Assembly: GCA_025453305.1 (NCBI GenBank)
Contig: JALOQO010000017.1
Coordinates: 1 to 16,521, forward strand
Direction of reading: 5' to 3'
Source of the DNA: Patescibacteria group bacterium
Lineage (GTDB): Bacteria; Patescibacteriota; Saccharimonadia; Saccharimonadales; CAIOMD01
Length of the DNA stretch: 16,521 nt
The translations under genes were made by a program, and so were the position numbers. Each line of letters begins with the position of its first letter. Within the stretch, counting starts at the first letter, position 1. Below the pieces are notes generated by a model that saw nothing but the letters and a program-made list of their open reading frames with translations, did not search any database and was not told the origin of the DNA. This document shows, one piece after another, positions 2,743 to 16,521 of the stretch.

Positions 2743-2982
2743 ATGACTACACTTAGTGACAAAACAACTATATATTTAGATCCAAAAGTTAAAAAGTTTT
2801 TAAAGCATAAGGCGATAGCAGAGGGTCGTTCTGTATCTGACCTAATAAATGAACAGTTTGCAGACATGCTAGAAGATCTATATGATATAAAAGAAGTAGA
2901 AAAACGAAGAAACGAAGATACTGTGAGTTTTGAGGATGTTCTAAAAGACCTTGGCTTAACTTATGAACAAATACGAAGTTGA
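2743..2982 (+). CDS. Ribbon-helix-helix antitoxin (RelB/CopG-like)
   Basis: A 79-residue protein. Residues about 8-40 fit a ribbon-helix-helix DNA-binding domain: the strand TTIYLDPKV, a helix, the turn EGRSVSDL, and a second helix. The charged C-terminal half (DIKEVEKRRNED onward) would wrap the toxin, as in RelB/ParD-type antitoxins. The gene overlaps the toxin start by 20 bp, so the two are translationally coupled. There is no ribosome binding site, because the predicted transcript starts at the ATG. By analogy with the family it should neutralise the toxin and repress its own promoter as a complex; this is not shown by the sequence. Confidence 0.85.
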   Translation: MTTLSDKTTIYLDPKVKKFLKHKAIAEGRSVSDLINEQFADMLEDLYDIKEVEKRRNEDTVSFEDVLKDLGLTYEQIRS

Positions 2983-3223
2983 ATTTACAAAATCTTCTCA
3001 AAAAGAACTAAATAAACTGCCGAAACAAACCGTCACAAGAATCTTAAAAAATATCGATAAATTAAGTGAAAATCCAAGGGCTGGATCTGTTAGGCCGATG
3101 GTTGGCATCAGCAGCTGGCGTTTAAGGGTAGGCGAATATCGAGTAGTCTATGACATTCATGACGGCAAACTAACCATCATGATTATTCGTATCCGTCACC
3201 GCAAAGACATTTATAGAAAATAA
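2963..3223 (+). CDS. RelE/ParE-family toxin
   Basis: An 86-residue basic protein with the classic layout of the RelE/ParE superfamily. It opens with the strand YEVEFTKSSQKELNKLP, followed by helices, and then SWRLRVGEYRVVYDI, which contains the conserved R-x-R...YRV-x-Y pattern. It ends with a last strand and RHRKDIYRK, matching the C-terminal basic/tyrosine motif of RelE toxins. RelE members cleave mRNA in the ribosomal A site and ParE members poison gyrase. The retained C-terminal RHR and tyrosine favour the RelE side, but this is not decisive. It begins inside the antitoxin gene with a 20-bp overlap. All core residues appear intact, so the module is probably active. Confidence 0.87.
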   Translation: MNKYEVEFTKSSQKELNKLPKQTVTRILKNIDKLSENPRAGSVRPMVGISSWRLRVGEYRVVYDIHDGKLTIMIIRIRHRKDIYRK

Positions 3224-5778: not shown

Positions 5779-6450
5779 CTACGGTGTTCTAGCAAAGGCT
5801 AAAACTTCTACATTTGTTGCTCCGGCATCCAATAATAATGCGCTGCAGGCTTCTATTGTTGAACCCGTAGTAACAACATCGTCTATTAGTAAAATATCGG
5901 CACCTTTAATAATATCGCTATATATAACCGTGTAAGCACCTTTAACTTGTTCCTGTCTTTGCGACCGACTAGCCCCAACTTGTATAGTGTTTTTAGTTTT
6001 TAAAAGCAAACTGTATGATTTCCAGTTTCTTAATTTTGCAAACTCTTGAGCTAATAATTTTGAGTGATCAAAACCTCTTTGCCTTATATGTTTACTCATG
6101 GTTGGCACATATGTAACAAGTGGGGGATTGGGTTTATATATGTAGTAGTCATTCAGCAATTGAGCAATATTTTTGGCACCAGCTCTTTTTGATAAAAATT
6201 TATAGTCGTGAATTGTCCTAATTACTAGATCTTTATATTCTGCATATATATAAATAGCTTTTGGTTTATGTATTGAACTGTGTTTAAAGCAGGGAGAATG
6301 ATTTTTGGTAGCTTTTTGGCAAACATAACAAATGCTTGGCAATGGTTTAATATCTTGTGAACAACCCGGGCAAATAACAAAACCCGCCAGATAGCAACCG
6401 ACACAATGATGCGGAGCAATAGCAGATAATATTTGGTCTAAAATGCTAAT
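5779..6450 (-). CDS. comF: ComF-like phosphoribosyltransferase with N-terminal zinc finger; start codon uncertain
   Basis: Type I phosphoribosyltransferase-fold protein of the ComF/GntX family, linked to DNA uptake during competence; its exact reaction is not settled. The PRPP-binding loop LLIDDVVTTGST (about residues 177-188) is intact. Upstream are HIRQRGFDHS and QVGASRSQRQ, matching the conserved QRGFNQ and Q...R..N motifs of ComF. Upstream of the first usual start (TTG, 6342) the same frame keeps running and encodes the family's N-terminal zinc finger: HHCVGC, ICPGC, ICYVC and a later Cys, preceded by SILDQIL. There is no ATG, GTG or TTG in that extension before the stop at 6486-6484, so an ATT start (6450 or 6444), or a fault in the sequence, must be invoked. 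From 6450 the length is 223 residues, normal for ComF. A divergent promoter lies just beyond. Confidence 0.82.
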   Translation of the reverse strand: MSILDQILSAIAPHHCVGCYLAGFVICPGCSQDIKPLPSICYVCQKATKNHSPCFKHSSIHKPKAIYIYAEYKDLVIRTIHDYKFLSKRAGAKNIAQLLNDYYIYKPNPPLVTYVPTMSKHIRQRGFDHSKLLAQEFAKLRNWKSYSLLLKTKNTIQVGASRSQRQEQVKGAYTVIYSDIIKGADILLIDDVVTTGSTIEACSALLLDAGATNVEVLAFARTP

Positions 6451-6515: not shown

Positions 6516-6582
6516 CTCATTTAAAGATAAAAAAGCAAACCGCTATAAATAAGCTGCAATTATTTAAACCTTGGAGGGTAAT

Positions 6583-7045
6583 ATGGCACGACGATCATCT
6601 GATGACGATTTATTAATGGAAGAGGAGTTAACCGCTGCATTTTTAGAGGGTGACGACATGAACGATGCCCAACCCGTTCAGCAACCAGCACCAGCTGACG
6701 ATGAGTGGGACGAGGGCGAAACAATCTTAGGCCAACTAGCCGTAGATGTTTACGAAACAAAAGAAAAGCTAGTTGTAAAAGCCCGTACTGCTGGTGTTAA
6801 CAAGAACGATTTAGATGTAAGCATAGCAGATAACACATTATCAATCCGCGGTACACTATCTGCGGGCAACGAAGAAGAGGTAGAAAACTACCACTTGCAA
6901 GAATGTTATTGGGGCGAGTAGAAGTCTAGTTTTGCCAGTACCGGTTAAAGAAGATGAAATACAAGCTAATCTTAAAGACGGCGTACTAACAATTAGCTTT
7001 ACCAAGGTACAACAAGATACTGTTAAGAAAATCCAAGTTCTTTAG
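6583..7045 (+). pseudogene. Small heat-shock protein (Hsp20/alpha-crystallin), frameshifted
   Basis: ATP-independent chaperone family that binds unfolding proteins. ATG at 6583 follows a good ribosome binding site, GGAGGG (6573-6578). Residues 1-45 are acidic and variable; the alpha-crystallin domain starts near LGQLAVDVYET and runs to NYHLQECYWGE (residue 112), where TAG (6919-6921) stops it. The family continues WGEFSRSLVLP at this point. In the +1 frame from 6917 the sequence reads SRSLVLPVPVKEDE, ANLKDGVLTISF and a final KKIQVL to TAG at 7045. So the second half of the domain, including the A-x-x-x-x-G-V-L motif, is present but out of frame. Loss of five bases between two AGT triplets would explain it. 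Either a recent pseudogene, an assembly error, or a recoding site. Confidence 0.85.
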
Positions 7046-7065
7046 TAATTTTTATTTACTGATAT

Positions 7066-7096
7066 AAAAAACCCCCTAAAAATAGGGGAGTTTTTT
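7066..7096. terminator. Bidirectional terminator between Hsp20 and the pilin operon
   Basis: CCCCTA, loop AAAA, TAGGGG with A6 on the left and T6 on the right. It ends the Hsp20 transcript on the plus strand and the pilin operon, whose last stop is at 7107, on the minus strand. Confidence 0.85.
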
Positions 7097-7106
7097 ATAA
7101 GTTATA

Positions 7107-7538
7107 CTAGTTTAAAAACATACTTCCCGACTGAGTAGTAAGATCACCTACAGTACCCAGTACAAATTTTACAATTATTTGCGCCAAGGCTACTATAATA
7201 AGACCAATAATTGCATACAGTATTGTGTTTTTAGCGCTACCAACCTTGGTGGTATCGCCACCGCTGGTAATGTACCTAAATCCACCGTAGATTATCATAA
7301 TCACCGATATTACGCCTACTATCCAAGAAAATATATTAATAACCGTTTCTACTAGACTGTTAACAGCAGCTGCATTCTGTTCTTCGCTTGTATCGCAACC
7401 CTCGTCACTTCCAAATTCTAGATTTGCTCCTTCACACAATTGATCATTGATATTTGGTGCTGCACTAACTGTTAATGCTGGGATGAAAGCTACTGCAAGC
7501 AAAAACACCCCGGCTATCATTAGTTTTAAACTTTTCAT
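7107..7538 (-). CDS. T4SS pilin-like protein 6 (VirB2/TrbC type)
   Basis: A 143-residue precursor: signal peptide (MKSLKLMIAGVFLLAVAFIP...VSAAP, cleavage about residue 27), a short outer segment with two cysteines (QLCEG and EGCDT), and two hydrophobic helices. The core (about residues 73-130) reads VIMIIYGGFRYITSGGD, a polar turn with TKVGSAK, then ILYAIIGLIIVALAQIIVKF. This is the pattern of the VirB2-like pilins of CPR bacteria (Pfam T4SS_pilin, named from memory). Ribosome binding site AAAGGAA lies eight bases before ATG 7538. It is the last of six paralogs and is separated from the others by 104 bp holding TTTACA-18-TAATAA, so it may also have its own promoter. Confidence 0.88.
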   Translation of the reverse strand: MKSLKLMIAGVFLLAVAFIPALTVSAAPNINDQLCEGANLEFGSDEGCDTSEEQNAAAVNSLVETVINIFSWIVGVISVIMIIYGGFRYITSGGDTTKVGSAKNTILYAIIGLIIVALAQIIVKFVLGTVGDLTTQSGSMFLN

Positions 7539-7642
7539 ATAAATATTCCTTTATTACTGTTTTTGATTATAGTTAATTATTACCACAAAAAGCTAATGCT
7601 TGTAAATAGAATTCAAATACTTAATTAATATTATCGCCTCGA

Positions 7643-8020
7643 TTACCCCACTCTATTGATTACAAACCATACAATAGACTGCGCAAGAACAACAATAATT
7701 AAACCAATAATCGCATACAAAATTGTATCTTTGGCGGTTTTTGTTTTGCTAGAATCTCCGCCTGAAGTTACATACTTAAAACCACCAACCATAATCATTA
7801 TTACCGAAGCTATACCAATTAACCACGAAAAAAAATCAATTATTGTACCAACAATATTATTTAATTTATTTTCTGGATCTGCCTCTCCGGGGCACACACC
7901 AGACGGGCATGTAGCTCTTATACCATCTTCAATTTGTGCACTAGCAAAGTTACCGAATGCTGTAAATGACAAGACAAAACAAAAAACTGTTGCCAAAAAA
8001 GTTATTGTTAATAATTTCAT
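7643..8020 (-). CDS. T4SS pilin-like protein 5 (VirB2/TrbC type)
   Basis: A 125-residue precursor with a signal peptide ending near NFASAQ, an outer segment with the cysteine pair ATCPSGVC, and a core VIMIMVGGFKYVTSGGD, turn KTKTAKD, then ILYAIIGLIIVVLAQSIVWF. It is the closest of the six to pilin 6, with almost the same helices. ATG at 8020 has a good ribosome binding site (AGGAG, 8033-8029) and starts 14 bases after the stop of the preceding gene. As a VirB2-like subunit it would polymerise into, or cap, a surface pilus; that role is inferred from the family. Confidence 0.88.
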   Translation of the reverse strand: MKLLTITFLATVFCFVLSFTAFGNFASAQIEDGIRATCPSGVCPGEADPENKLNNIVGTIIDFFSWLIGIASVIMIMVGGFKYVTSGGDSSKTKTAKDTILYAIIGLIIVVLAQSIVWFVINRVG

Positions 8021-8034
8021 TATTTATGCTCCTA

Positions 8035-8451
8035 TTATTTAAATTGGTTTATAAAGAACAATACGATATACCTACTTAGCACTATGACAATCACTCCAAT
8101 TAACGCATAGATTATCATTTTACGGCCATCTGCTGCCTTTTCTGACGATCCAGCACTTTTTATATACCTAAAACCGCCCCACATAATATATAAAACCGCC
8201 AATATTCCAGCAATATATGCTAAGAGGTCAATTATTCTTTTAATTATATCTAGGACAACATTGTCTGAATTTTCGGTGTTTTCTGAACCCTGTCTCCAGC
8301 CTATGCAAAGTGAGCTATTTTTATTTTTAGACTGGCTACAAATTGCATCTAAATCGTCTACCGCTTTACCCTCTGCCACTAAAACAGCACTAGGAGCAAT
8401 AAAGGTAAGCCAAAATAATAAAATATATAATGATAATACTGCTTGTTTCAT
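8035..8451 (-). CDS. T4SS pilin-like protein 4 (VirB2/TrbC type)
   Basis: A 138-residue precursor: signal peptide (LYILLFWLTFIAPSAVLVAEG), an outer segment of about 45 residues with two cysteines (AICSQ and SLCIG), and a core with AVLYIMWGGFRYIKSAG, turn SEKAADGRK, then IIYALIGVIVIVLSRYIVLFF. The ATG (8451-8449) overlaps the TGA stop of the upstream gene as ATGA, with TAGGAC upstream as a weak ribosome binding site, so translation is coupled. The outer segment is more charged than in pilins 5 and 6. Confidence 0.85.
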   Translation of the reverse strand: MKQAVLSLYILLFWLTFIAPSAVLVAEGKAVDDLDAICSQSKNKNSSLCIGWRQGSENTENSDNVVLDIIKRIIDLLAYIAGILAVLYIMWGGFRYIKSAGSSEKAADGRKMIIYALIGVIVIVLSRYIVLFFINQFK

Positions 8452-8723
8452 TTTGTCCTATCTATTACAAACCTTACAATGGTCCAGGCAAAGCTAGCAA
8501 CTATAAGCCCAACAACCACATATATAATATTTCGCCGAGCGCTAGCTACTTTTTCTGGGTTACCGCTAGACAATATTAATTGTACGCCAGCCCAGGTTAC
8601 CATTAATACGCCAATAGCGCCTAGCACAGCGAATACTAAATTTACAATATCAGATAATGAATTGCTTGGATTAGGCAAATAAGTCGGTTTGAGCAGTTGC
8701 GCTATATATAAAAATGCTTTCAT
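8448..8723 (-). CDS. T4SS pilin-like protein 3, short form without cysteines
   Basis: At 91 residues the shortest member. It has no clear cleavable signal peptide and no outer cysteine pair: a short N-terminus (MKAFLYIAQLLKPTYLPNPS) leads straight to the two helices, GVLMVTWAGVQLILSSGN, turn PEKVASARRN, and IIYVVVGLIVASFAWTIVRF. The NPEKVxSAR turn is typical of pilins from Gram-positive and CPR conjugation systems. Its ATG overlaps the TGA of the preceding gene (ATGA at 8723-8720), and its own TGA overlaps the next ATG. It may be the main pilin or an inner-membrane partner; the sequence does not decide. Confidence 0.85.
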   Translation of the reverse strand: MKAFLYIAQLLKPTYLPNPSNSLSDIVNLVFAVLGAIGVLMVTWAGVQLILSSGNPEKVASARRNIIYVVVGLIVASFAWTIVRFVIDRTK

Positions 8724-9166
8724 GAATTAAACCTTGTAGCAATAAAACCTACCAGTTGAGAGGCAAATACTGCAATTACTAAACCAACAATGGCGTTAAA
8801 AATTGTAGTTCTAGCGGCAGCAATTTTGTTAGAATCACCGGTTGATGTTAAAAATCTAAAAGAACCATAAATTATCATTATCACCGCCAAAAAACCGGCA
8901 CCAAACATAAGAATATCAAATACCCCCATAAGTATTAACACCGTTAATGTACCGGCATTTACGCCACCATTAGAAGTATCTGTATTAATAGTGCAATCGG
9001 GGTTCATGGGTAGATATTCGTACCATACCGGAATGCTAAAAAAGCCATTAGATCTTCTGTTTTCGCACCCTAACTGGTTAGACGCATAGGCTGGGCTAGC
9101 AAAAATAAACATCATAAGCATAAGCAAAGATAAAACTAATGGGATTGATTTATAACTGAAAACCAC
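8720..9166 (-). CDS. T4SS pilin-like protein 2 (VirB2/TrbC type), GTG start
   Basis: A 148-residue precursor. GTG at 9166-9164 is chosen because GGAGGTGT (9180-9173) lies nine bases upstream and the codon overlaps the TAG stop of the preceding gene (TAGTG). A further upstream GTG at 9193 would place the ribosome binding site inside the gene. The signal peptide (SIPLVLSLLMLMMFIFASPAYA) is followed by an outer segment of about 45 residues with two cysteines (LGCEN and PDCTI), then a hydrophobic stretch and the core VIMIIYGSFRFLTSTGD, turn KIAAARTT, IFNAIVGLVIAVFASQLVGF. Confidence 0.85.
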   Translation of the reverse strand: MVFSYKSIPLVLSLLMLMMFIFASPAYASNQLGCENRRSNGFFSIPVWYEYLPMNPDCTINTDTSNGGVNAGTLTVLILMGVFDILMFGAGFLAVIMIIYGSFRFLTSTGDSNKIAAARTTIFNAIVGLVIAVFASQLVGFIATRFNS

Positions 9167-9735
9167 TAGAACACACCTCCGGGCACCAGCCACTGTAAAA
9201 ACGCATATAAAAAGAAGTAAGTCAAAAGTCCTATTACAACATTACCAATTTGTTCTTTTGCCGCCTTAACACCACCAGCATCATCTCTGGCTAATATATA
9301 TCTAACACCAGCATATGCAACCATAACCGTAGACCCGGCCACAATTAAAACCGTTAGCCAGTTCATAAAAAATTGTATCCACAGTATTATTGGGTGATCT
9401 CCGTCTAAGTCACCCCTATAGACACCGATCTGATTCGTAGGCGGAGCAAGTGGATTAGTAGATTCAGCATCTATAACGGGTCTTGTTCCGTCATAACTTC
9501 CGCTATTATCTTTAACAACTTTCTCTGCACATTTTCTCTGATCAACTAACTTAGTTTCTTTCCTAAAACATGCTTCTACCTGTGCAATACACTGGCTAGA
9601 CCTACTATCCGTTGGGCAACCATATTCACCGGCAGCCGTAGCATTGTTGTTAAACCCAAAAAATAACGAATATACAACAACGATTACAACAAAAGTGTAG
9701 GTTAGGCTTAAATTGTTACGGTTTATGATTTTCAT
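9166..9735 (-). CDS. T4SS pilin-like protein 1, largest paralog with four cysteines
   Basis: First gene of the pilin operon, 189 residues from the ATG at 9735; a TTG at 9768 would add 11 residues, and neither has a ribosome binding site. Signal peptide (LTYTFVVIVVVYSLFFGF), then an outer domain of about 90 residues with four cysteines (YGCPTDSRSSQC, EACFRK, RKCAEK). The two-helix core is the most diverged: VMVAYAGVRYILARDD, turn GGVKAAKEQ, then VIGLLTYFFLYAFLQWLV. The usual GGD turn is replaced by RDDAGG. Its TAG stop overlaps the next GTG start. The larger outer domain makes a tip or minor subunit conceivable; this is speculation. Confidence 0.82.
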   Translation of the reverse strand: MKIINRNNLSLTYTFVVIVVVYSLFFGFNNNATAAGEYGCPTDSRSSQCIAQVEACFRKETKLVDQRKCAEKVVKDNSGSYDGTRPVIDAESTNPLAPPTNQIGVYRGDLDGDHPIILWIQFFMNWLTVLIVAGSTVMVAYAGVRYILARDDAGGVKAAKEQIGNVVIGLLTYFFLYAFLQWLVPGGVF

Positions 9736-9768
9736 ATTTAATTGTTGTTTGATAGTATTTAATAACAA

Positions 9769-9941
9769 AAAGCTTACGATTACAACCTTAATAACATTTT
9801 ATTCTTATCCTAACCCACTGTTTTCAATCTTTCTTTTGCATATTATTTATAATTATAATAGTCCTCAATCCTTAAGGTTAAATATATTACCAAATCAAAG
9901 TAGAATATTTATTCAACTTATGGTTAAATTTATTTATTAAT
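9769..9941. promoter_or_regulatory. Divergent control region between the pilin operon and the VirB6 arm
   Basis: AT-rich 170-bp gap between two divergent T4SS transcripts. Toward the plus strand, TATAAT (9854-9859) would give a leader of about 75 bases, but its -35 is poor. Toward the minus strand, TTGAGG (9868-9863), 17 bp, TAATAT (9845-9840) fits a promoter. The two overlap around the palindromic TTATAATTATAA, so the arms could be controlled together. A 6-codon open frame, ATG GTT AAA TTT ATT TAT TAA (9920-9940), ends one base before the VirB6 start. Confidence 0.45.
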
Positions 9942-12803
9942 ATGGCATTGCGCAAAAGAAAAATATCATTATACTTTTTTTCTCTACTAATAATTAGTAG
10001 CTTGGTATTTGGTATTTTACAGAACACGGTGTTTGCTTACCAACTATCAGCATTGGGTGTAGATGACAGAATAAAAGTTAGAAACTTAGCAATAATATTT
10101 GAGAAGTGTTATTCCCTTTCAGGTTATGACGATAGGGTGTCCCAAGAAGAGGTAAATAACGGGCGCTGGCTAGCAAGCGGCACCGGGTCGGATCATATAG
10201 TAGCGGCCGGCATACTAGTTGATTCAGTAGATGGAATAGTTGACTGCGCCGGAGATGATGCAAATTGGATGCAGCAATTTATGACCCTGGCCTCATACGG
10301 CTCGCTGGCTCAAGCATTCAATGACCTTTCTAAAACAAAAGCCCCAGGAGACACCGATCCGCTTGGATATTTAAAACCAATGAATGAAATAAAAACAGTC
10401 TTAAACGGAAGATTTGGCTACGATATATGGACACTAGGCAGCCAGGACTATCTGACTTATAGAAGTAACTTTTTAGATTGGGAGAACACATGTCAGGCAC
10501 AGCCGGTAACCCAAAGATCGAATGTTGGTATTTATGGCGAAATATGGGTTGTAAGAAACAATCAAGTAGAAAAGCAGCTGTATTCATACCAAGACAATAA
10601 TGTATATAACCGAATTGGTGAAGAAAAATTCGGCCGTAATAACGATACTATTGATCATGTTAAATGCTCCGAGCTATTGGGATACTTAGCTACTAAGTCC
10701 CATGCTGACGCATATTTGGCTTCCCTTGCCACACTACCCAGTGCACCACCCGTCGCAACACCCGGCGGCGCAGCGGATCCATCTAGTGGTGTATCCGACG
10801 GTGATGGCTCATGTGAAGCGTCAATGGCTCTTGGCTGGATTGTATGTGCCATAGGCGAGGGCTTATCTCATGTCACCCGTTTGATAGATGGTACTATGTA
10901 TGATTTATTATATATTAACACCGAGGAATGGAACGAAGACAGTGGAGTATATGTTTTCTGGGGTGTGTTTAGAACACTTGCAACTACATTATTGGTAGTA
11001 ATTGCTTTGGTTGCCATTGCTAGTCAGATATTTAATTTTAATTTTTTAAGTGCCTATACAGTTAAAAAGGTTTTACCTAAAATAATTATTGCAGCAATAG
11101 CTATACAGTTAAGCTTCTTTTTAGCTAAAATTGCGGTGGACATATCAAATACAATAGGTTACAGTATCCAATCTTTAATGTCGGCACCTTTTGAAAGGTT
11201 CATTGATACATCTGCTTCTCCTGATGGTTGGATAAGTTTTCAAAATATAATGAGCCTTTGGGCCGACAATACACCCGCCATACAGCAACAAGCAGGTGCA
11301 GCTGCTGCAATTACCGCTACCGGTCTAGCCGGGTTATTTGTTGCCGCACCGGCTTTAATAGCACTAGGTGGAGGAATTATTGGAAGCGCCACCGCTGGCC
11401 CTTTTGCGGTAGTGATGTTAATAATAGCCACACTTGTACCTGCGGTAATCGCACTTATAATAGCTTATGCGACACTAGTTTTAAGAGTTGCGATTATAAT
11501 CGGCCTTATTGCAGTTTTACCACTGGCGATAATTGCCTGGATACTGCCCAATACAGAAAAATGGTGGAAACAGTGGTGGGGCATGTTTTTTGCAGCCTTA
11601 ATAATGTTCCCAGTAATTATTGCTACTTTAACTTTTGGTAAATTGGTTGCAGTAATGTTTGCAATAAACAACAGCGGTGGCCTAAGACCAATTATTACCC
11701 TTTTTGCAATAATAATTGCATATTTTTTGCCTTATTTCTTAATTTTTAAAATGATTAAATTTAGCGGTGGTGCATTGGGCAAATTACAAGGTGTAATAGA
11801 TAATACTAAATCAAAAATCAGTGGTAACGAGGGTCTTAAAACCTGGCGCCAAAGAAAGAAAGAATCCGCTAAATACTATTCGGATGAGCGAGCACGGTCA
11901 GCTGCTTTGGGAGCTCAAGGTTATCTAGACGATAAAGATAATAAAAATAAAAGATTTCGACGAGCTTGGAATAGGCGAGTGCTTAGCAATGCTCAATCTC
12001 GACTGGGTAATTCTGGATATTACGGGGAACTACAGGAAGCCGAAATGGCTAAAATTTTAGATAAAGCCAAGTCTGACGCAGAAGGACAATATACTAGAGC
12101 AGAGGCTTCTGTAGGTCAAAATAATCATAAGAAATTTAATGCCTGGGCATTAACCGGCTTAGATGAAAATGGGGAAAAAAAGGATACATTTATCGACGAA
12201 GATACTAATGCAGAAATAAAGTGGAGCGAAGAACTACAAGCCGCAGCCGTACCAAAAGGTCTTATGTTTAAACACAATGATCAAGTTAAAAAAGTTATAG
12301 CTGAGGGTAAAAATAGAAATGACGGTACTGGTGCGGTTATTCGGCGCTTTGCTCAAGATAATCAAAGCAAGCTAGACGAACTAATGCCCTCTTTGACTAG
12401 GGGTAGATACGGCTTAGAAGAAAAGAAAGATAAGGGTGTTGTAGTGAAAGACAAACAAGGTAAACCAATTATAGTAATGTCTGGTTCTACGGAGAAATCC
12501 TTTGGTTCTATTGGTAAAATTAACGCAAGTTCGGATGAGTTTAAGGAAATGACAGATGCTCATGTAAAGGGCTTGACAAACGACGCAACAAAACAAAGAG
12601 CACTGGATATAATAAACTCTGTTACGATACCCGGAACAGCCTCTAACGACCTAGATGATTACGAAAAAGCGTTAAGAGAAATTGACGAAAATTTAATAGA
12701 CAAGGGTACAATAGCTATGGTAAAAGTATCAGACGGCAATTTGAAATTAGGTTTTGATCCCACTGGTAAAATTATTGCGGTCAAAACAGACCTAGCCCCT
12801 TAG
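9942..12803 (+). CDS. VirB6/TrbL-like polytopic T4SS channel protein
   Basis: A 953-residue protein. The signal peptide (about 1-32) is followed by a large outer domain (33-335) with cysteines at about 56, 101, 184, 242, 291 and 302. Hydrophobic segments lie at about 337-361, 375-402, 452-480, 486-510, 512-534, 547-573 and 583-604. The Ala/Gly-rich loop-helix QQQAGAAAAITATGLAGLF, and the WWKQWWGMFF before a helix, fit the VirB6/TrbL inner-membrane channel family. The last 340 residues (from KTWRQRKKES) are highly charged and soluble, probably cytoplasmic and partly coiled. Typical VirB6 proteins have about 300 residues, so both the outer domain and the tail are extensions. No ribosome binding site precedes ATG 9942. 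The order VirB6-PrgI-VirB4 supports the call. Confidence 0.85.
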   Translation: MALRKRKISLYFFSLLIISSLVFGILQNTVFAYQLSALGVDDRIKVRNLAIIFEKCYSLSGYDDRVSQEEVNNGRWLASGTGSDHIVAAGILVDSVDGIVDCAGDDANWMQQFMTLASYGSLAQAFNDLSKTKAPGDTDPLGYLKPMNEIKTVLNGRFGYDIWTLGSQDYLTYRSNFLDWENTCQAQPVTQRSNVGIYGEIWVVRNNQVEKQLYSYQDNNVYNRIGEEKFGRNNDTIDHVKCSELLGYLATKSHADAYLASLATLPSAPPVATPGGAADPSSGVSDGDGSCEASMALGWIVCAIGEGLSHVTRLIDGTMYDLLYINTEEWNEDSGVYVFWGVFRTLATTLLVVIALVAIASQIFNFNFLSAYTVKKVLPKIIIAAIAIQLSFFLAKIAVDISNTIGYSIQSLMSAPFERFIDTSASPDGWISFQNIMSLWADNTPAIQQQAGAAAAITATGLAGLFVAAPALIALGGGIIGSATAGPFAVVMLIIATLVPAVIALIIAYATLVLRVAIIIGLIAVLPLAIIAWILPNTEKWWKQWWGMFFAALIMFPVIIATLTFGKLVAVMFAINNSGGLRPIITLFAIIIAYFLPYFLIFKMIKFSGGALGKLQGVIDNTKSKISGNEGLKTWRQRKKESAKYYSDERARSAALGAQGYLDDKDNKNKRFRRAWNRRVLSNAQSRLGNSGYYGELQEAEMAKILDKAKSDAEGQYTRAEASVGQNNHKKFNAWALTGLDENGEKKDTFIDEDTNAEIKWSEELQAAAVPKGLMFKHNDQVKKVIAEGKNRNDGTGAVIRRFAQDNQSKLDELMPSLTRGRYGLEEKKDKGVVVKDKQGKPIIVMSGSTEKSFGSIGKINASSDEFKEMTDAHVKGLTNDATKQRALDIINSVTIPGTASNDLDDYEKALREIDENLIDKGTIAMVKVSDGNLKLGFDPTGKIIAVKTDLAP

Positions 12804-13029: not shown

Positions 13030-14157
13030 ATGGCAGAATATAAAGTAATCCAAGATGTAGAAGCAGAAGATAAGATTATAGGTAGCTTAAGTTTAAAGCA
13101 ACTTATTTTTGCTGCTATAGCGGTAGCTATAGCTTTTTTGGGTTTTAGGATATTTATGCTGGTAGGTAATATTTTTATATTTATTCCTTTTTTGCCATTT
13201 ATTATAGTTTTTGGACTTTTAGCAGCACCCCTGGGTAGGCAGCAATCTACCGAGCTATGGCTAGCCGCGCAAGTGCATTTTTATACCAAGCCTCGTAAGC
13301 GCATTTGGGATCAAAGCGATATAAAGCAGCTAGTACATATAACCGTTCCTAGAAAAATCGAAAAACAATACACCGACGGTTTAAACCAAGGTCAGGTAAA
13401 AAGCCGAATAAGCGCCCTAGCAACAGCTATGGACTCTAGAGGCCAAGCAATTTTACACCCAATGCAAATAAGCGACTATACCAATGGTAATTATGGCCGA
13501 ATCATAGAATCTAAAGTTAATAAAAGTAGGGTAGATTTAGACATTAAACCAGGTGATGACATACTAGATGCCAATAATTCTACTTCTCAAAATTTTTCTA
13601 AATTATTACAAGAATCAGACAAAAACCATAAACAAAAAATTATAGAAGACTTAAAAAAGCCCAAACCAGCCAATCCCGCAAAAGATCAAGATAATACCGT
13701 ATGGTTTACGCAAACCACCGATCAAATAATAGATACCCCAAAAGATATATCTATAGCCAACTATGCTGGTTTCGCCCCCGAACCACAAGCAAAAATAGTA
13801 TCCTTACCAGCAAACAAGGCAGCAGAAGAAACAGAAGAAGACAAAGCCATTTTAAAAAATAACCGTGCATTATCAACCGAAAAATTCAGAAATCCACACC
13901 ATAAAGTTGTCCCAACGCCAGAACAAATTGCCGCACAACAAGAGCAAGATAAGCTAGATCAAGAAATTCAAAATAAAGCTAAACAAGCAAGACAAAAAAG
14001 ACTACAAGATAACAAACCCAAGACAGGACTAACAAAGACTGATACAATAGAACTTGCTTATGATAATAATTTATCGGTGTCATCTGTACAACATTTAGCC
14101 GATAGAAAAGCTGCTAAGCAAAAAAGCCCAAGCGAAGTAGTTGTAAAATTACATTAG
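13030..14157 (+). CDS. PrgI-family T4SS membrane protein with a long charged tail
   Basis: The first about 95 residues match the PrgI family: MAEYKVIQDVEAEDKIIGSL, two transmembrane helices (about 24-40 and 43-66), then LGRQQSTELWLAAQVHFYTKP and IWDQSD. PrgI-type proteins of Gram-positive and CPR conjugation systems sit in the membrane next to VirB4 and are thought to take the VirB3 place. Here the family domain (usually about 100-150 residues in all) is followed by some 280 residues rich in Lys, Gln, Asp and Pro, low in hydrophobics and probably disordered, with a basic Gln/Lys stretch near 300-335. Function of the tail is unknown. The next gene starts 30 bases on. Confidence 0.85.
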   Translation: MAEYKVIQDVEAEDKIIGSLSLKQLIFAAIAVAIAFLGFRIFMLVGNIFIFIPFLPFIIVFGLLAAPLGRQQSTELWLAAQVHFYTKPRKRIWDQSDIKQLVHITVPRKIEKQYTDGLNQGQVKSRISALATAMDSRGQAILHPMQISDYTNGNYGRIIESKVNKSRVDLDIKPGDDILDANNSTSQNFSKLLQESDKNHKQKIIEDLKKPKPANPAKDQDNTVWFTQTTDQIIDTPKDISIANYAGFAPEPQAKIVSLPANKAAEETEEDKAILKNNRALSTEKFRNPHHKVVPTPEQIAAQQEQDKLDQEIQNKAKQARQKRLQDNKPKTGLTKTDTIELAYDNNLSVSSVQHLADRKAAKQKSPSEVVVKLH

Positions 14158-14187: not shown

Positions 14188-15012
14188 ATGCCACCCGAGC
14201 CACCACAGCCAGAACCAAGCCAATTGACTCAACCGCCAATAGGTGCAGCTGCTCCTATAGTGCCTACACCCGCCAGCGGTGGTCAAGCAAAAGGTAACCC
14301 CAATAGCACCCAAAACACCTTACAAATTGCCGAAATAAGAGACGGTGTTGTGATTATGAATGACGGATCTTTTAGGGCTGTTCTGCAAATTCAAAGCATA
14401 AATTACGATCTTATGAGTGGCGAGGAAAAAGAGGCTGTAGAATACGCCTACCAAAGTTTTTTAAACTCACTTTATTTTGAAATTCAAATAGTAGTTAAAT
14501 CTTCTAAAATAGATATCCGGCCTTATTTAGATAAACTAGACAAAATTAGATCAGAACACGACAATATGCTACTAGCCGTACTGATGGACGATTATCTTAA
14601 TTATATTGCTAATTTAGCCGAACAAACCAACATTATGGATAAGAAATTTTTTGTAGTAATACCGTTTTATAGCAATTTAGACACCCGAAAAGTAGCCCAA
14701 GCTAGCAAGGGGCTTATAGAAACAATTTTTGGCAAAAAAGAACAAGTGGTAACAATAGACGAAAACATACTTGAAACGGGCAAAACAGAGCTTAAAAACC
14801 GCGCTCAAACCGTACTGGCCGGCCTAAACGGCTGTGGCGTGCAGGGTGTATCATTAAACACCCAAGAACTTATAGAACTATATTATGATTTTTATAATCC
14901 AGACACAGCTACTCACCAAAAATTAATTAACTTTAGCAACCTTACGGCGCCGATTATCGAAAAGGGTGAAGGTAGCGCATATCAACCTAACCTAGAAAAA
15001 GAGGTGGTGTAA
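14188..15012 (+). CDS. Free-standing VirB4 N-terminal-domain protein (TraC-like)
   Basis: A 274-residue protein. Residues 1-40 are Pro/Gln-rich (PPEPPQPEPSQ...) and flexible. From about 45 the sequence (DGVVIMNDGSFRAVLQIQSI, then NYDLMSGEEKEAVEYAYQSF) resembles the N-terminal domain of Gram-positive VirB4/TraE-type proteins, which open with a similar mixed beta-alpha region. It has no Walker motif. It ends two bases before the ATPase gene begins (GAGGTGGTG within its last codons acts as the ribosome binding site for the next start). I infer that VirB4 is split into two chains here, a non-catalytic membrane-docking subunit and the ATPase. No transmembrane helix is visible. Confidence 0.75.
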   Translation: MPPEPPQPEPSQLTQPPIGAAAPIVPTPASGGQAKGNPNSTQNTLQIAEIRDGVVIMNDGSFRAVLQIQSINYDLMSGEEKEAVEYAYQSFLNSLYFEIQIVVKSSKIDIRPYLDKLDKIRSEHDNMLLAVLMDDYLNYIANLAEQTNIMDKKFFVVIPFYSNLDTRKVAQASKGLIETIFGKKEQVVTIDENILETGKTELKNRAQTVLAGLNGCGVQGVSLNTQELIELYYDFYNPDTATHQKLINFSNLTAPIIEKGEGSAYQPNLEKEVV

Positions 15013-15014
15013 AT

Positions 15015-16521
15015 ATGGGATTATTTGGCAAAAAACAAACCACCGATCCATCACAACAAGCACAAATGCAAGTTGTACAAGATCAAGAAAACATTAAAGT
15101 GGCCTTTGACAAAGGTATAACCGCCTTAAGAGATTTTATTGCACCCAGTAGTATCGAATATTTTAGCAATTATTTTCAGATAGGCACTAGGTTTGCCAGA
15201 ACCTATTATGTTTACGGCTATCCAAGGCAAATATTTACCGGTTGGTTAAGTGGTTTTATTAATATAGACGAGGTAGTGGATCTATCGATGTATATCTACC
15301 CAGTCGAAAGCGAAGTCGTGCTTAATAACTTGCGCAAAAAAGTATCCCAGCTAGAGGCCGGTATACAGATAGACTCCGAACATGGCAGAGTTAGAGACCC
15401 GGCAAAGCAGGCAGCCATACAAGACGCCGAAGAACTAAGAGATAAACTACAGGTGGGCGAAGAACACTTTTTTAGATTTGGATTTTATTTTACGGTTTAC
15501 GGAGAATCAAAAGAAGAGCTTGATTTTGTAAGCCACAAAATAGAATCTATGTTAGGCCAACAACTAATATACAGCAAACCAGCTACAGCCCAGCAAGAGC
15601 AAGGTTTAAATAGCACAATTCCGCAGTTCACCGATCACCTTAAAATTAGACGAAACATGAACACCGGCGCTATCAGTACAAGCTTTCCTTTTACCAGTGC
15701 TGATCTTAGCGATAACCACGGCATTTTATATGGTGTAAATATGCATAATAGCGGTTTGGTAATTTTTGATAGATTTAGCCTAGAAAACGGCAATAGTGTT
15801 GTTTTTGCCAAATCTGGCGCTGGTAAAAGCTTTACTGTTAAGCTAGAAGCCTTGCGCAGTTTAATGCTAGGCACCGATGTTTTTATAATAGACCCAGAAA
15901 ACGAATACGAAAAAATGGCAGAGGCAGTTGGCGGGAGCTATGTTAAGCTTAACTTAAACTCACCAACCAGAATTAACCCTTTTGATTTACCAGGTGTACT
16001 AGAAGAAGATAAAGACAATGCTCTTAGAAGTAATCTTGTAACTTTGCATGGTTTGTTAAGACTAATGATGGGTGGGGCGCAAGTTCAAATTGCCGGTGGC
16101 CAAGGTGGTGCAGCATCAACACCCGTTTTAGAACCCGAACAAGAAGCAGATTTAGACGCCGCACTACTAGAAACCTATGCTAAAGCCGGTATTACTACCG
16201 ACCCACTTACCCATAATAGCCAGCCACCAACAATTAATGATTTATACGATGTTCTTTTGCATATGGGGGGGACCGGCCCACAGCTAGCCCAAAGGTTGCG
16301 CAAATACACCACCGGTACATTTAGCGGCTTGTTTAGCCAACAAAGTAATGTTGATATTAACAACCCATTTGTAGTATTTAATATCAGAGATCTAGAAGAC
16401 GAACTGCGGCCTGTTGCAATGTATATAGTGCTTAATTTTATCTGGAACAAAACCAAAAAAGACCGCAAAAAAAGAATTTTAATTGTAGACGAAGCTTGGC
16501 AGTTAATGAAGTACGAAGACA
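15015..16521 (+). CDS. virB4: VirB4/TraC-family ATPase (3' end outside window)
   Basis: Energiser ATPase of the T4SS. The frame is open from ATG 15015 to the window edge (502 codons, no stop). Residues 1-30 are polar (MGLFGKKQTTDPSQQ). The N-part (about 40-250) includes FARTYYVYGYPRQIFTGW, typical of VirB4 just before the ATPase domain. Walker A is AKSGAGKS (265-272), followed by IIDPENEYE (about 291-299) and RINPFDLPG. Walker B is RILIVDEAWQL, with Asp 492 and Glu 493. GPQLAQRLRKYTTGTFSGLF precedes it. All nucleotide-binding residues visible so far are intact. It starts two bases after the stop of the VirB4 N-domain gene. Confidence 0.95.
   Translation, partial: MGLFGKKQTTDPSQQAQMQVVQDQENIKVAFDKGITALRDFIAPSSIEYFSNYFQIGTRFARTYYVYGYPRQIFTGWLSGFINIDEVVDLSMYIYPVESEVVLNNLRKKVSQLEAGIQIDSEHGRVRDPAKQAAIQDAEELRDKLQVGEEHFFRFGFYFTVYGESKEELDFVSHKIESMLGQQLIYSKPATAQQEQGLNSTIPQFTDHLKIRRNMNTGAISTSFPFTSADLSDNHGILYGVNMHNSGLVIFDRFSLENGNSVVFAKSGAGKSFTVKLEALRSLMLGTDVFIIDPENEYEKMAEAVGGSYVKLNLNSPTRINPFDLPGVLEEDKDNALRSNLVTLHGLLRLMMGGAQVQIAGGQGGAASTPVLEPEQEADLDAALLETYAKAGITTDPLTHNSQPPTINDLYDVLLHMGGTGPQLAQRLRKYTTGTFSGLFSQQSNVDINNPFVVFNIRDLEDELRPVAMYIVLNFIWNKTKKDRKKRILIVDEAWQLMKYED

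Follow-up and report, generated by a model that had tools for sequence, protein, structure and literature searches.

What use does a type IV secretion system (T4SS) have for six pilin genes? VirB2/TrbC pilins are short two-helix proteins with a leader, and the canonical T4SS possesses a single gene for one of them. The stretch of DNA analysed here (the window: 16,521 nucleotides of contig JALOQO010000017.1, assembly GCA_025453305.1) comes from a member of the Saccharimonadales in the Patescibacteriota, and represents contig 94 of a genome of 659,616 bases that is 70% complete. Six consecutive minus-strand open reading frames (ORFs), all of the T4SS_pilin type, occupy positions 7107-9735, and we number their slots in order of transcription, from P1 (beginning at 9735) to P6 (ending at 7107). 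A first-pass annotation had described them as six coupled paralogues sharing a core. Comparison with relatives reveals that, within the window's order, each position in the array is an orthologue group of its own.

P1 (9166..9735, minus strand, as for all six) encodes 189 amino acids (aa), has the longest outer segment, with four cysteines (positions 40, 49, 56 and 69), and carries VPGGVF at its C-terminal end. P2 (8720..9193; 157 aa) has IPVWYEYL between its two outer cysteines (43 and 67); its translation probably begins with the GTG at 9166, inside a TAGTG shared with the P1 stop codon, so that the product is shorter than 157 aa. P3 (8448..8723) is the shortest at 91 aa, possesses neither a signal-like segment nor a cysteine and is joined by an ATGA overlap to P2 on one side and to P4 on the other. 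P4 (8035..8451; 138 aa; outer cysteines 38 and 49) and P5 (7643..8020; 125 aa; 38 and 43) each have a leader and two outer cysteines, and are separated from one another by 14 bp. A gap of 104 bp (7539..7642, minus strand), containing TATAAT at 7566-7571 and AAAGGA, then precedes P6 (7107..7538; 143 aa; outer cysteines 35 and 48), the member with the best conserved core and the slot that is duplicated in relatives. P2 and P5 have one extra cysteine each in the leader, at positions 7 and 14. Core identity between pairs within the window ranges from 12% (P1-P4) to 64% (P5-P6). The cysteine layout given in the first-pass annotation (four in the first gene, two in four genes, none in the shortest) and its TAGTG and ATGA overlaps are correct, as is the absence of a clear signal peptide from the shortest protein, a property shared by 42 of 46 P3 orthologues on contigs that do not overlap our training set (see below). 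All six ORFs match PF18895 (T4SS_pilin): P2-P6 exceed the cut-off of 26.6 in a direct profile search, where P1 scores 24.4, and P1 passes it at 26.9 in a search of genome frames. Thirty-seven of 40 genomes, that of the window among them, have PF18895 matches, and because these are arranged as arrays (some of them ended by contig edges), the presence of six pilin genes here is not due to chance.

Two sets of relatives were used. The first (training) set consists of 22 unfused six-gene arrays, representing 18 family codes and drawn from 41 loci; loci without exactly six matches were left out, and three genomes with six matches (G018, G019 and G006) were dropped by hand. The second comes from a genome scan that produced 80 loci, of which 28 overlapped the training set and were dropped; 52 were kept, 46 of them complete arrays. 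These non-overlapping contigs need not represent new genera, and the counts given here ignore kinship among genomes. Slot profile models applied in a leave-one-genome-out scheme assigned 128 of 132 domains to their own slot; with shuffled gene orders the figures were 30 and 18. Gene order was exactly 1-2-3-4-5-6(6) in 40 of the 46 complete second-set arrays, the deviating six being L152 (124456), L185, L188, L192 and L199 (1234666) and L190 (123466). Arrays left over from the first set are also mostly in order, the deviants being G023, where a second domain resembles slot 4, G035, which ends in a 5-like copy, G038 (1-2-3-6-6), G039, which lacks a 5-like member, arrays cut by contig ends and a weak fragment, G032b. 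The outer segments do not drive slot assignment, as models of the core only (67 columns), applied to 39 unfused second-set arrays, were correct for 233 of 251 proteins (P1 39/39, P2 39/39, P3 38/39, P4 32/39, P5 30/39, P6 55/56). Across the 18 family codes, each of the slots P1-P4 occurs once, in order and in recognisable form.

Trees of the cores give a more graded picture. In a tree of 130 cores (two of the 132, too short or containing X, were left out, likewise from the first-set cysteine table), a single branch separates P1 from everything else (100/100), another does so for P2 (91/89), and P3 needs two changes; in a tree of 378 cores the three slots need one, three and seven changes, respectively. 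Alignment with homologues, which the first-pass annotation had proposed as a check for position-specific orthologue groups, therefore bears these out for P1-P3 by both profiles and trees, and for P4-P6 by profiles and not by clades. The head of the array is a fixed set and the tail an amplifiable one. Twenty-nine of the 46 complete arrays have six domains, 15 have seven and two have eight; extra members are at the tail in all 17 of the longer arrays and are P6-like in every case, with one P5-like exception elsewhere (G035). In three of the 22 arrays represented in the tree (G009, G021 and G029), P5 groups with P6 of its own genome as a sister pair. Mean pairwise core identity, from P1 to P6, is 41, 46, 41, 41, 54 and 65.9%. 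The free variation in copy number and order that would have marked the array as mere gene amplification is not seen for P1-P4; the tail differs, with its P5/P6 sisters and its extra copies. Plain amplification of the whole array was rejected for P1-P4, since the slot models recover them, and is retained as an explanation for the tail.

How far does this arrangement extend? Outside the class the slots are not recognisable: at 40 loci among the matches listed (39 of them from other classes), slot-model margins were 0-13 bits, with only G085, from the same class and another order, keeping a clear P1 (margin +46). A six-slot set common to the phylum is thus not supported. Either slot differentiation arose within this class, or an older differentiation has drifted past recognition.

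The slots are also distinguished by sequence signatures. On non-overlapping contigs, PGG is present near the C-terminus of 32 of 40 P1 proteins and in only one of 254 other pilins, and a W-aromatic-x-aromatic-aliphatic motif is found in the outer part of 39 of 40 P2 proteins (between two cysteines in 38) and in none from other slots. The outer segment of P1 is the longest and most variable of any slot (23-272 residues in 22 arrays). For cysteine counts, the leader was set by a crude hydrophobicity rule and fused and edge-cut ORFs were excluded, as were proteins of more than 220 aa in the counts for other classes. In the second set, a signal-like segment is seen in four of 46 P3 proteins and outer cysteines are absent from 32 of the 46, whilst exactly two outer cysteines are present in 46 of 50 P4 and 41 of 45 P5 proteins. 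Across all slots the number is even in 290 of 294 second-set proteins (P1 40/40, P2 39/40, P3 44/46, P4 50/50, P5 45/45, P6 72/73), which supports the outer cysteine pairs of the first-pass annotation; the first set gives 20/22 for each of P1, P2 and P3, 21/21 for P4, 22/22 for P5 and 21/21 for P6. Among 144 pilins from other classes, 108 lack outer cysteines, 27 have two and six have an odd number, and as outer cysteines are mostly absent there, pairing seems to be a feature of this lineage. VKOR is matched twice and a DsbA-like protein once in the window's genome; over the 40 genomes, VKOR is represented in 24 and the DsbA-like type in 36.

Some members of the family are unusually large. Genome G006 encodes a P3 of 419 aa and a P4 of 581 aa (L060:5385-8386) and G022 a P1 of 714 aa (L039:9647-11791); in seven large P1, P3 and P4 variants no Pfam domain was found beyond that of the pilin, save a sub-threshold DUF6112 in one. 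In other Patescibacteria classes, pilin matches occur within very long ORFs, such as L145:3-6917 (2305 aa, truncated where its stretch ends) and L111:4841-8560 (1239 aa).

Gene spacing sets P6 apart from the remainder of the array. Median distances in the 46 second-set arrays are -1, 2, -4 and 9 bp for the four junctions from P1 to P5 and 76 bp for P5-P6, a gap that measures 40 bp or more in 40 of the arrays. We scanned 90 bp upstream of each slot (120 bp for P1) for the extended -10 motif TGNTAYAH. It is present upstream of P6 in 32 of 51 relatives, compared to a shuffled mean of 3.6, and is at chance upstream of P1-P5 (2/44, 3/41, 1/46, 1/50 and 2/44, with shuffled values of 3.9, 2.2, 2.3, 3.4 and 3.4); with counts there no different from those in shuffles, TGNTAYAH does not mark the start of the P1 unit. 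The fixed product ratios proposed in the first-pass annotation are accordingly plausible for the tightly packed P1-P5. They are not so for P6, as this gene usually comes with a separate promoter-like element, and fixed-ratio expression of all six is not supported. A conserved RNA element in the P5-P6 gap was considered and discarded: folds inspected by eye showed no common structure, and what is conserved in the gap is the -10-like motif. Past P6 lies a terminator-like stem-loop (7072..7089, minus strand, readable on the opposite strand too) that is weak evidence on its own, as a terminator-like scan of positions 7000-10000 found two such elements with 1.7 expected.

Further clues to the relationship between the slots come from arrays in which two of them are encoded in one frame. 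P1 and P2 are fused in four cases (L171, L176, L182 and L190; the linkers are common to them, and they may be one event), P2 and P3 in six (G019, G026, G030, G038, L194 and L225, with L194 being a complete genome) and P3 and P4 in two (G028 and G023), although G023 is a weak case, its second domain scoring 62.4 as P4 versus 58.2 as P5. No P4+P5 or P5+P6 fusion was found in these loci, and every fusion pairs adjacent slots of the P1-P4 part. Such joining of adjacent genes provides indirect evidence that their products are in contact. A double '6+6' match in L166 was rejected as a fusion, being one protein of 121 aa. Structure prediction gives a helical hairpin for P6 (pLDDT, the predicted local distance difference test score, 67.8) and two helical hairpins for a P1+P2 fusion (pLDDT 76.3); for the fusion model there was no match to the PDB at E ≤ 0.001. 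PDB sequence searches returned only weak, unrelated rows, and Foldseek and a VIA comparison covering 10 chains were uninformative for a helical hairpin.

Taken together, these results lead us to favour, with a confidence barely past the halfway mark, a reading in which P6 is the major pilin of a chromosomal T4SS and P1-P5 make up a specialised minor or tip hetero-complex with disulfide-closed outer segments. Slot orthology, gene order, even cysteine numbers, the promoter-like element, the neighbour fusions and the presence of VKOR/DsbA-type enzymes are observed; that the products meet in one structure, that they divide into major and minor roles, that the disulfides form and that there is a tip position is what we infer from them. 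The array would thus encode fixed, position-differentiated subunits of the VirB2/T4SS-pilin type for the chromosomal T4SS of the order. P6 is the putative major pilin on account of its best conserved core, its duplicated slot and, usually, a promoter-like element of its own. P1-P5, as one packed unit, would provide minor subunits, with P1-P4, probably together with P5, forming a specialised hetero-complex that starts, caps or anchors the P6 polymer. Within this complex P1, with its PGG and its long and variable outer part, would be the best candidate for an exposed tip, and P3, mostly lacking both leader and cysteines, for an inner, membrane-side partner, much as the first-pass annotation had suggested, whilst VKOR/DsbA-type enzymes may close the outer segments by disulfides. 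A more specific proposal is made tentatively, and we would give it somewhat less than an even chance: four or five minor pilins (P1-P4 or P1-P5) would form a conserved hetero-complex, locked by disulfides, that nucleates the polymer of P6, a major pilin under separate control, or sits at its tip.

A number of observations weigh against this reading. P4, P5 and P6 do not form clean clades, needing 9, 15 and 12 changes in the 130-core tree and 14, 33 and 32 in the 378-core tree, which makes this part of the case for six specialised subunits weak. The promoter-like element is missing ahead of 19 of 51 P6 genes, and the TATAAT of the window lacks the TG and has a weak -35; since, in addition, a general promoter scan of the window found 14 candidates with 13.3 expected, not above chance, the P6 element of the window is proposed on the strength of its relatives. 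A signal-like segment is seen in just 21 of 40 P2 proteins in the second set (19 of 22 in the first). Outer cysteines are absent from two P1 and two P5 proteins in the second set and from one P1, two P5 and one P6 in the first, and 16 of the 40 genomes have no VKOR match, so that these would need another oxidation route or would lack the bonds. A Foldseek comparison of the P6 model with the PDB gave no match at E ≤ 0.001. Finally, cryo-electron tomography (cryoET) of a related species, N. lyticus, revealed a thick pilus that is argued, in the portion of PMC12206443 available to us, to be unlikely to be a T4SS pilus.

In a different view, P1-P5 are parts of an inner-membrane channel or platform that stand in for T4SS components the system lacks, and polymerisation is confined to P6 or does not take place. 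The argument that the thick filament of N. lyticus is not a T4SS pilus (PMC12206443, as above), the scarcity of signal-like segments in P3 (4/46) and P2 (21/40) and the fused hairpins, which would suit a static complex, speak for it. Against this, the pilin core is kept in all slots and P1 has a long outer part, and we consider a channel or platform unlikely. The mixed pilus suggested in the first-pass annotation, with all six proteins as structural subunits of one repeating unit in fixed ratio, would account for the overlapping genes across P1-P4, and the one-ORF fusions force a 1:1 ratio for the pairs concerned. As P6 is usually set apart by its gap and promoter-like element and the copy number of the tail varies, however, a fixed 1:1:1:1:1:1 unit is improbable, and we regard the mixed pilus as distinctly unlikely.

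No less doubtful is antigenic or host-range diversification through gene amplification, which PMC12102498 offers, in the text available to us, by analogy with the VirB2 paralogues of Bartonella and Anaplasma. The sister pairs of P5 and P6 within G009, G021 and G029, the extra copies at the tail and the very variable length of the P1 outer segment are all in keeping with it, but free diversification would not be expected to leave P1-P4 with one ordered, identifiable copy each in 18 family codes, and for P1-P3 it is largely excluded.

The array as such is not new. Arrays of this kind, which the first-pass annotation rightly placed in genomes of the candidate phyla radiation (CPR), are in print (PMC12102498, PMC10633639 and PMC12857230, each available to us in part). 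According to the first of these, 383 assemblies contain 441 arrays of 2-11 such genes with a mean identity of 25%, and the arrays are suggested to help adapt to different hosts; the window array, with the same PF18895 domain and the same T4SS neighbours, belongs to this kind. In Southlakia epibionticum the pilin series is reported to be essential (PMC10633639) and its array to comprise six pilins (PMC12857230), the same number as in the window. The role of the Saccharibacteria T4SS is described as completely unknown in the accessible part of PMC11665869. Where those texts report variability and essentiality, the present analysis contributes slot orthology, cysteine parity, the P6 promoter-like element and neighbour fusions; in a literature search that did not extend to preprints, supplements and many journals, no published slot-specific orthology for these arrays was found. 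The Bartonella and Anaplasma paralogues also provide several VirB2-type genes per T4SS, said to serve variation (PMC12102498, same text), whereas the head slots of the window array are fixed.

The PF04956 (TrbC/VirB2) profile matches five of the six proteins at E 0.017 or better (P1 is not listed), with four well under the curated cut-off (15.8-23) and only P5, at 27.9, equalling the printed value of 27.9, so that by this measure they are not assigned to the family; the canonical systems, moreover, have one pilin gene where there are six here. NF045849 (Mbov_0395 family pilin-like conjugal transfer protein), which from its name we take to be a family of mycoplasma elements, is the top NCBIfam match for P2-P6, though all six fall under its cut-off of 40, from 16.7 (P1) to 38.0 (P3, the best), and none is assigned to it.

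Type IV pili and type II secretion systems employ fixed, specialised minor pilins beside one major subunit. The likeness to the array is in working plan only, fold and export route being unrelated, and no membership is claimed; if the more specific proposal above is true, the T4SS would possess its own equivalent of the minor-pilin tip seen in type IV pili, independently arisen in an unrelated fold. In the one species of Saccharibacteria tested, growth on a host requires the T4SS, and the P1-P4/P5 complex of that proposal would be the host-contact end of an epibiotic machine on which growth depends. If the slots are distinct parts, the 'essential series of pilins' becomes a set of named, separately testable subunits (major, cap, host contact), and a monoderm T4SS would be able to build a composite structure beyond the usual picture of one VirB2.

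The remainder of the T4SS lies on the plus strand. A divergent intergenic region (9736..9941) separates P1 from a gene for a VirB6-like membrane protein (9942..12803; 953 aa), which has no Pfam match and is named by position and relatives; wherever both genes are seen on non-overlapping contigs (37 of 37 loci), the VirB6-like gene is divergent and upstream of P1. Next are PrgI (VirB3-like; 13030..14157; PF12666), the N-terminal part of VirB4 as a gene of its own (14188..15012; NCBIfam VirB4-type models, all under their cut-offs) and the VirB4 ATPase part (15015..16520), which runs past the end of the window, is named as the continuation of the N-terminal part and is the sole match of its kind in the window's genome. 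VirB4, PrgI/VirB3 and VirB6, the combination that identifies a monoderm (FATA-type) T4SS, are thus all present, with the VirB4 N-terminal part below cut-offs and VirB6 named by position and relatives. For the coupling protein VirD4 (PF02534), the mark of a conjugative T4SS, no match was found in the 70%-complete genome of the window; 11 of the 40 genomes have one over the cut-off, the best at 39.9 bits. The division of VirB4 into two adjoining genes (14188-16520) recurs, as separate ORFs, in every locus where the two parts can be seen (21 of 21 in the training set and seven of seven in the second set), and the words 'split' and 'two genes' are absent from the main text of PMC12102498.

Pilin-like domains also occur away from the arrays. 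A weak match (21.5 bits, under the cut-off) lies in a 418-aa frame elsewhere in the window's genome (G000:C61:2353-2496, L007), and relatives have matches in frames of 410-602 aa off the array contig or stretch (G011:C10, G018:C42, G027:C3:163606 and G030:C82). Elsewhere in the window, ORF 20-1093 presumably encodes a serine recombinase, two small overlapping ORFs at 2743-3223 resemble what we take to be an antitoxin and a RelE-type toxin, ORF 6571-6921 resembles HSP20 and is apparently truncated, with coding-like sequence continuing downstream, and ORF 5779-6342 presumably encodes a ComF-type phosphoribosyltransferase. The presence of comF near such T4SS loci is mentioned in the available text of PMC12102498.

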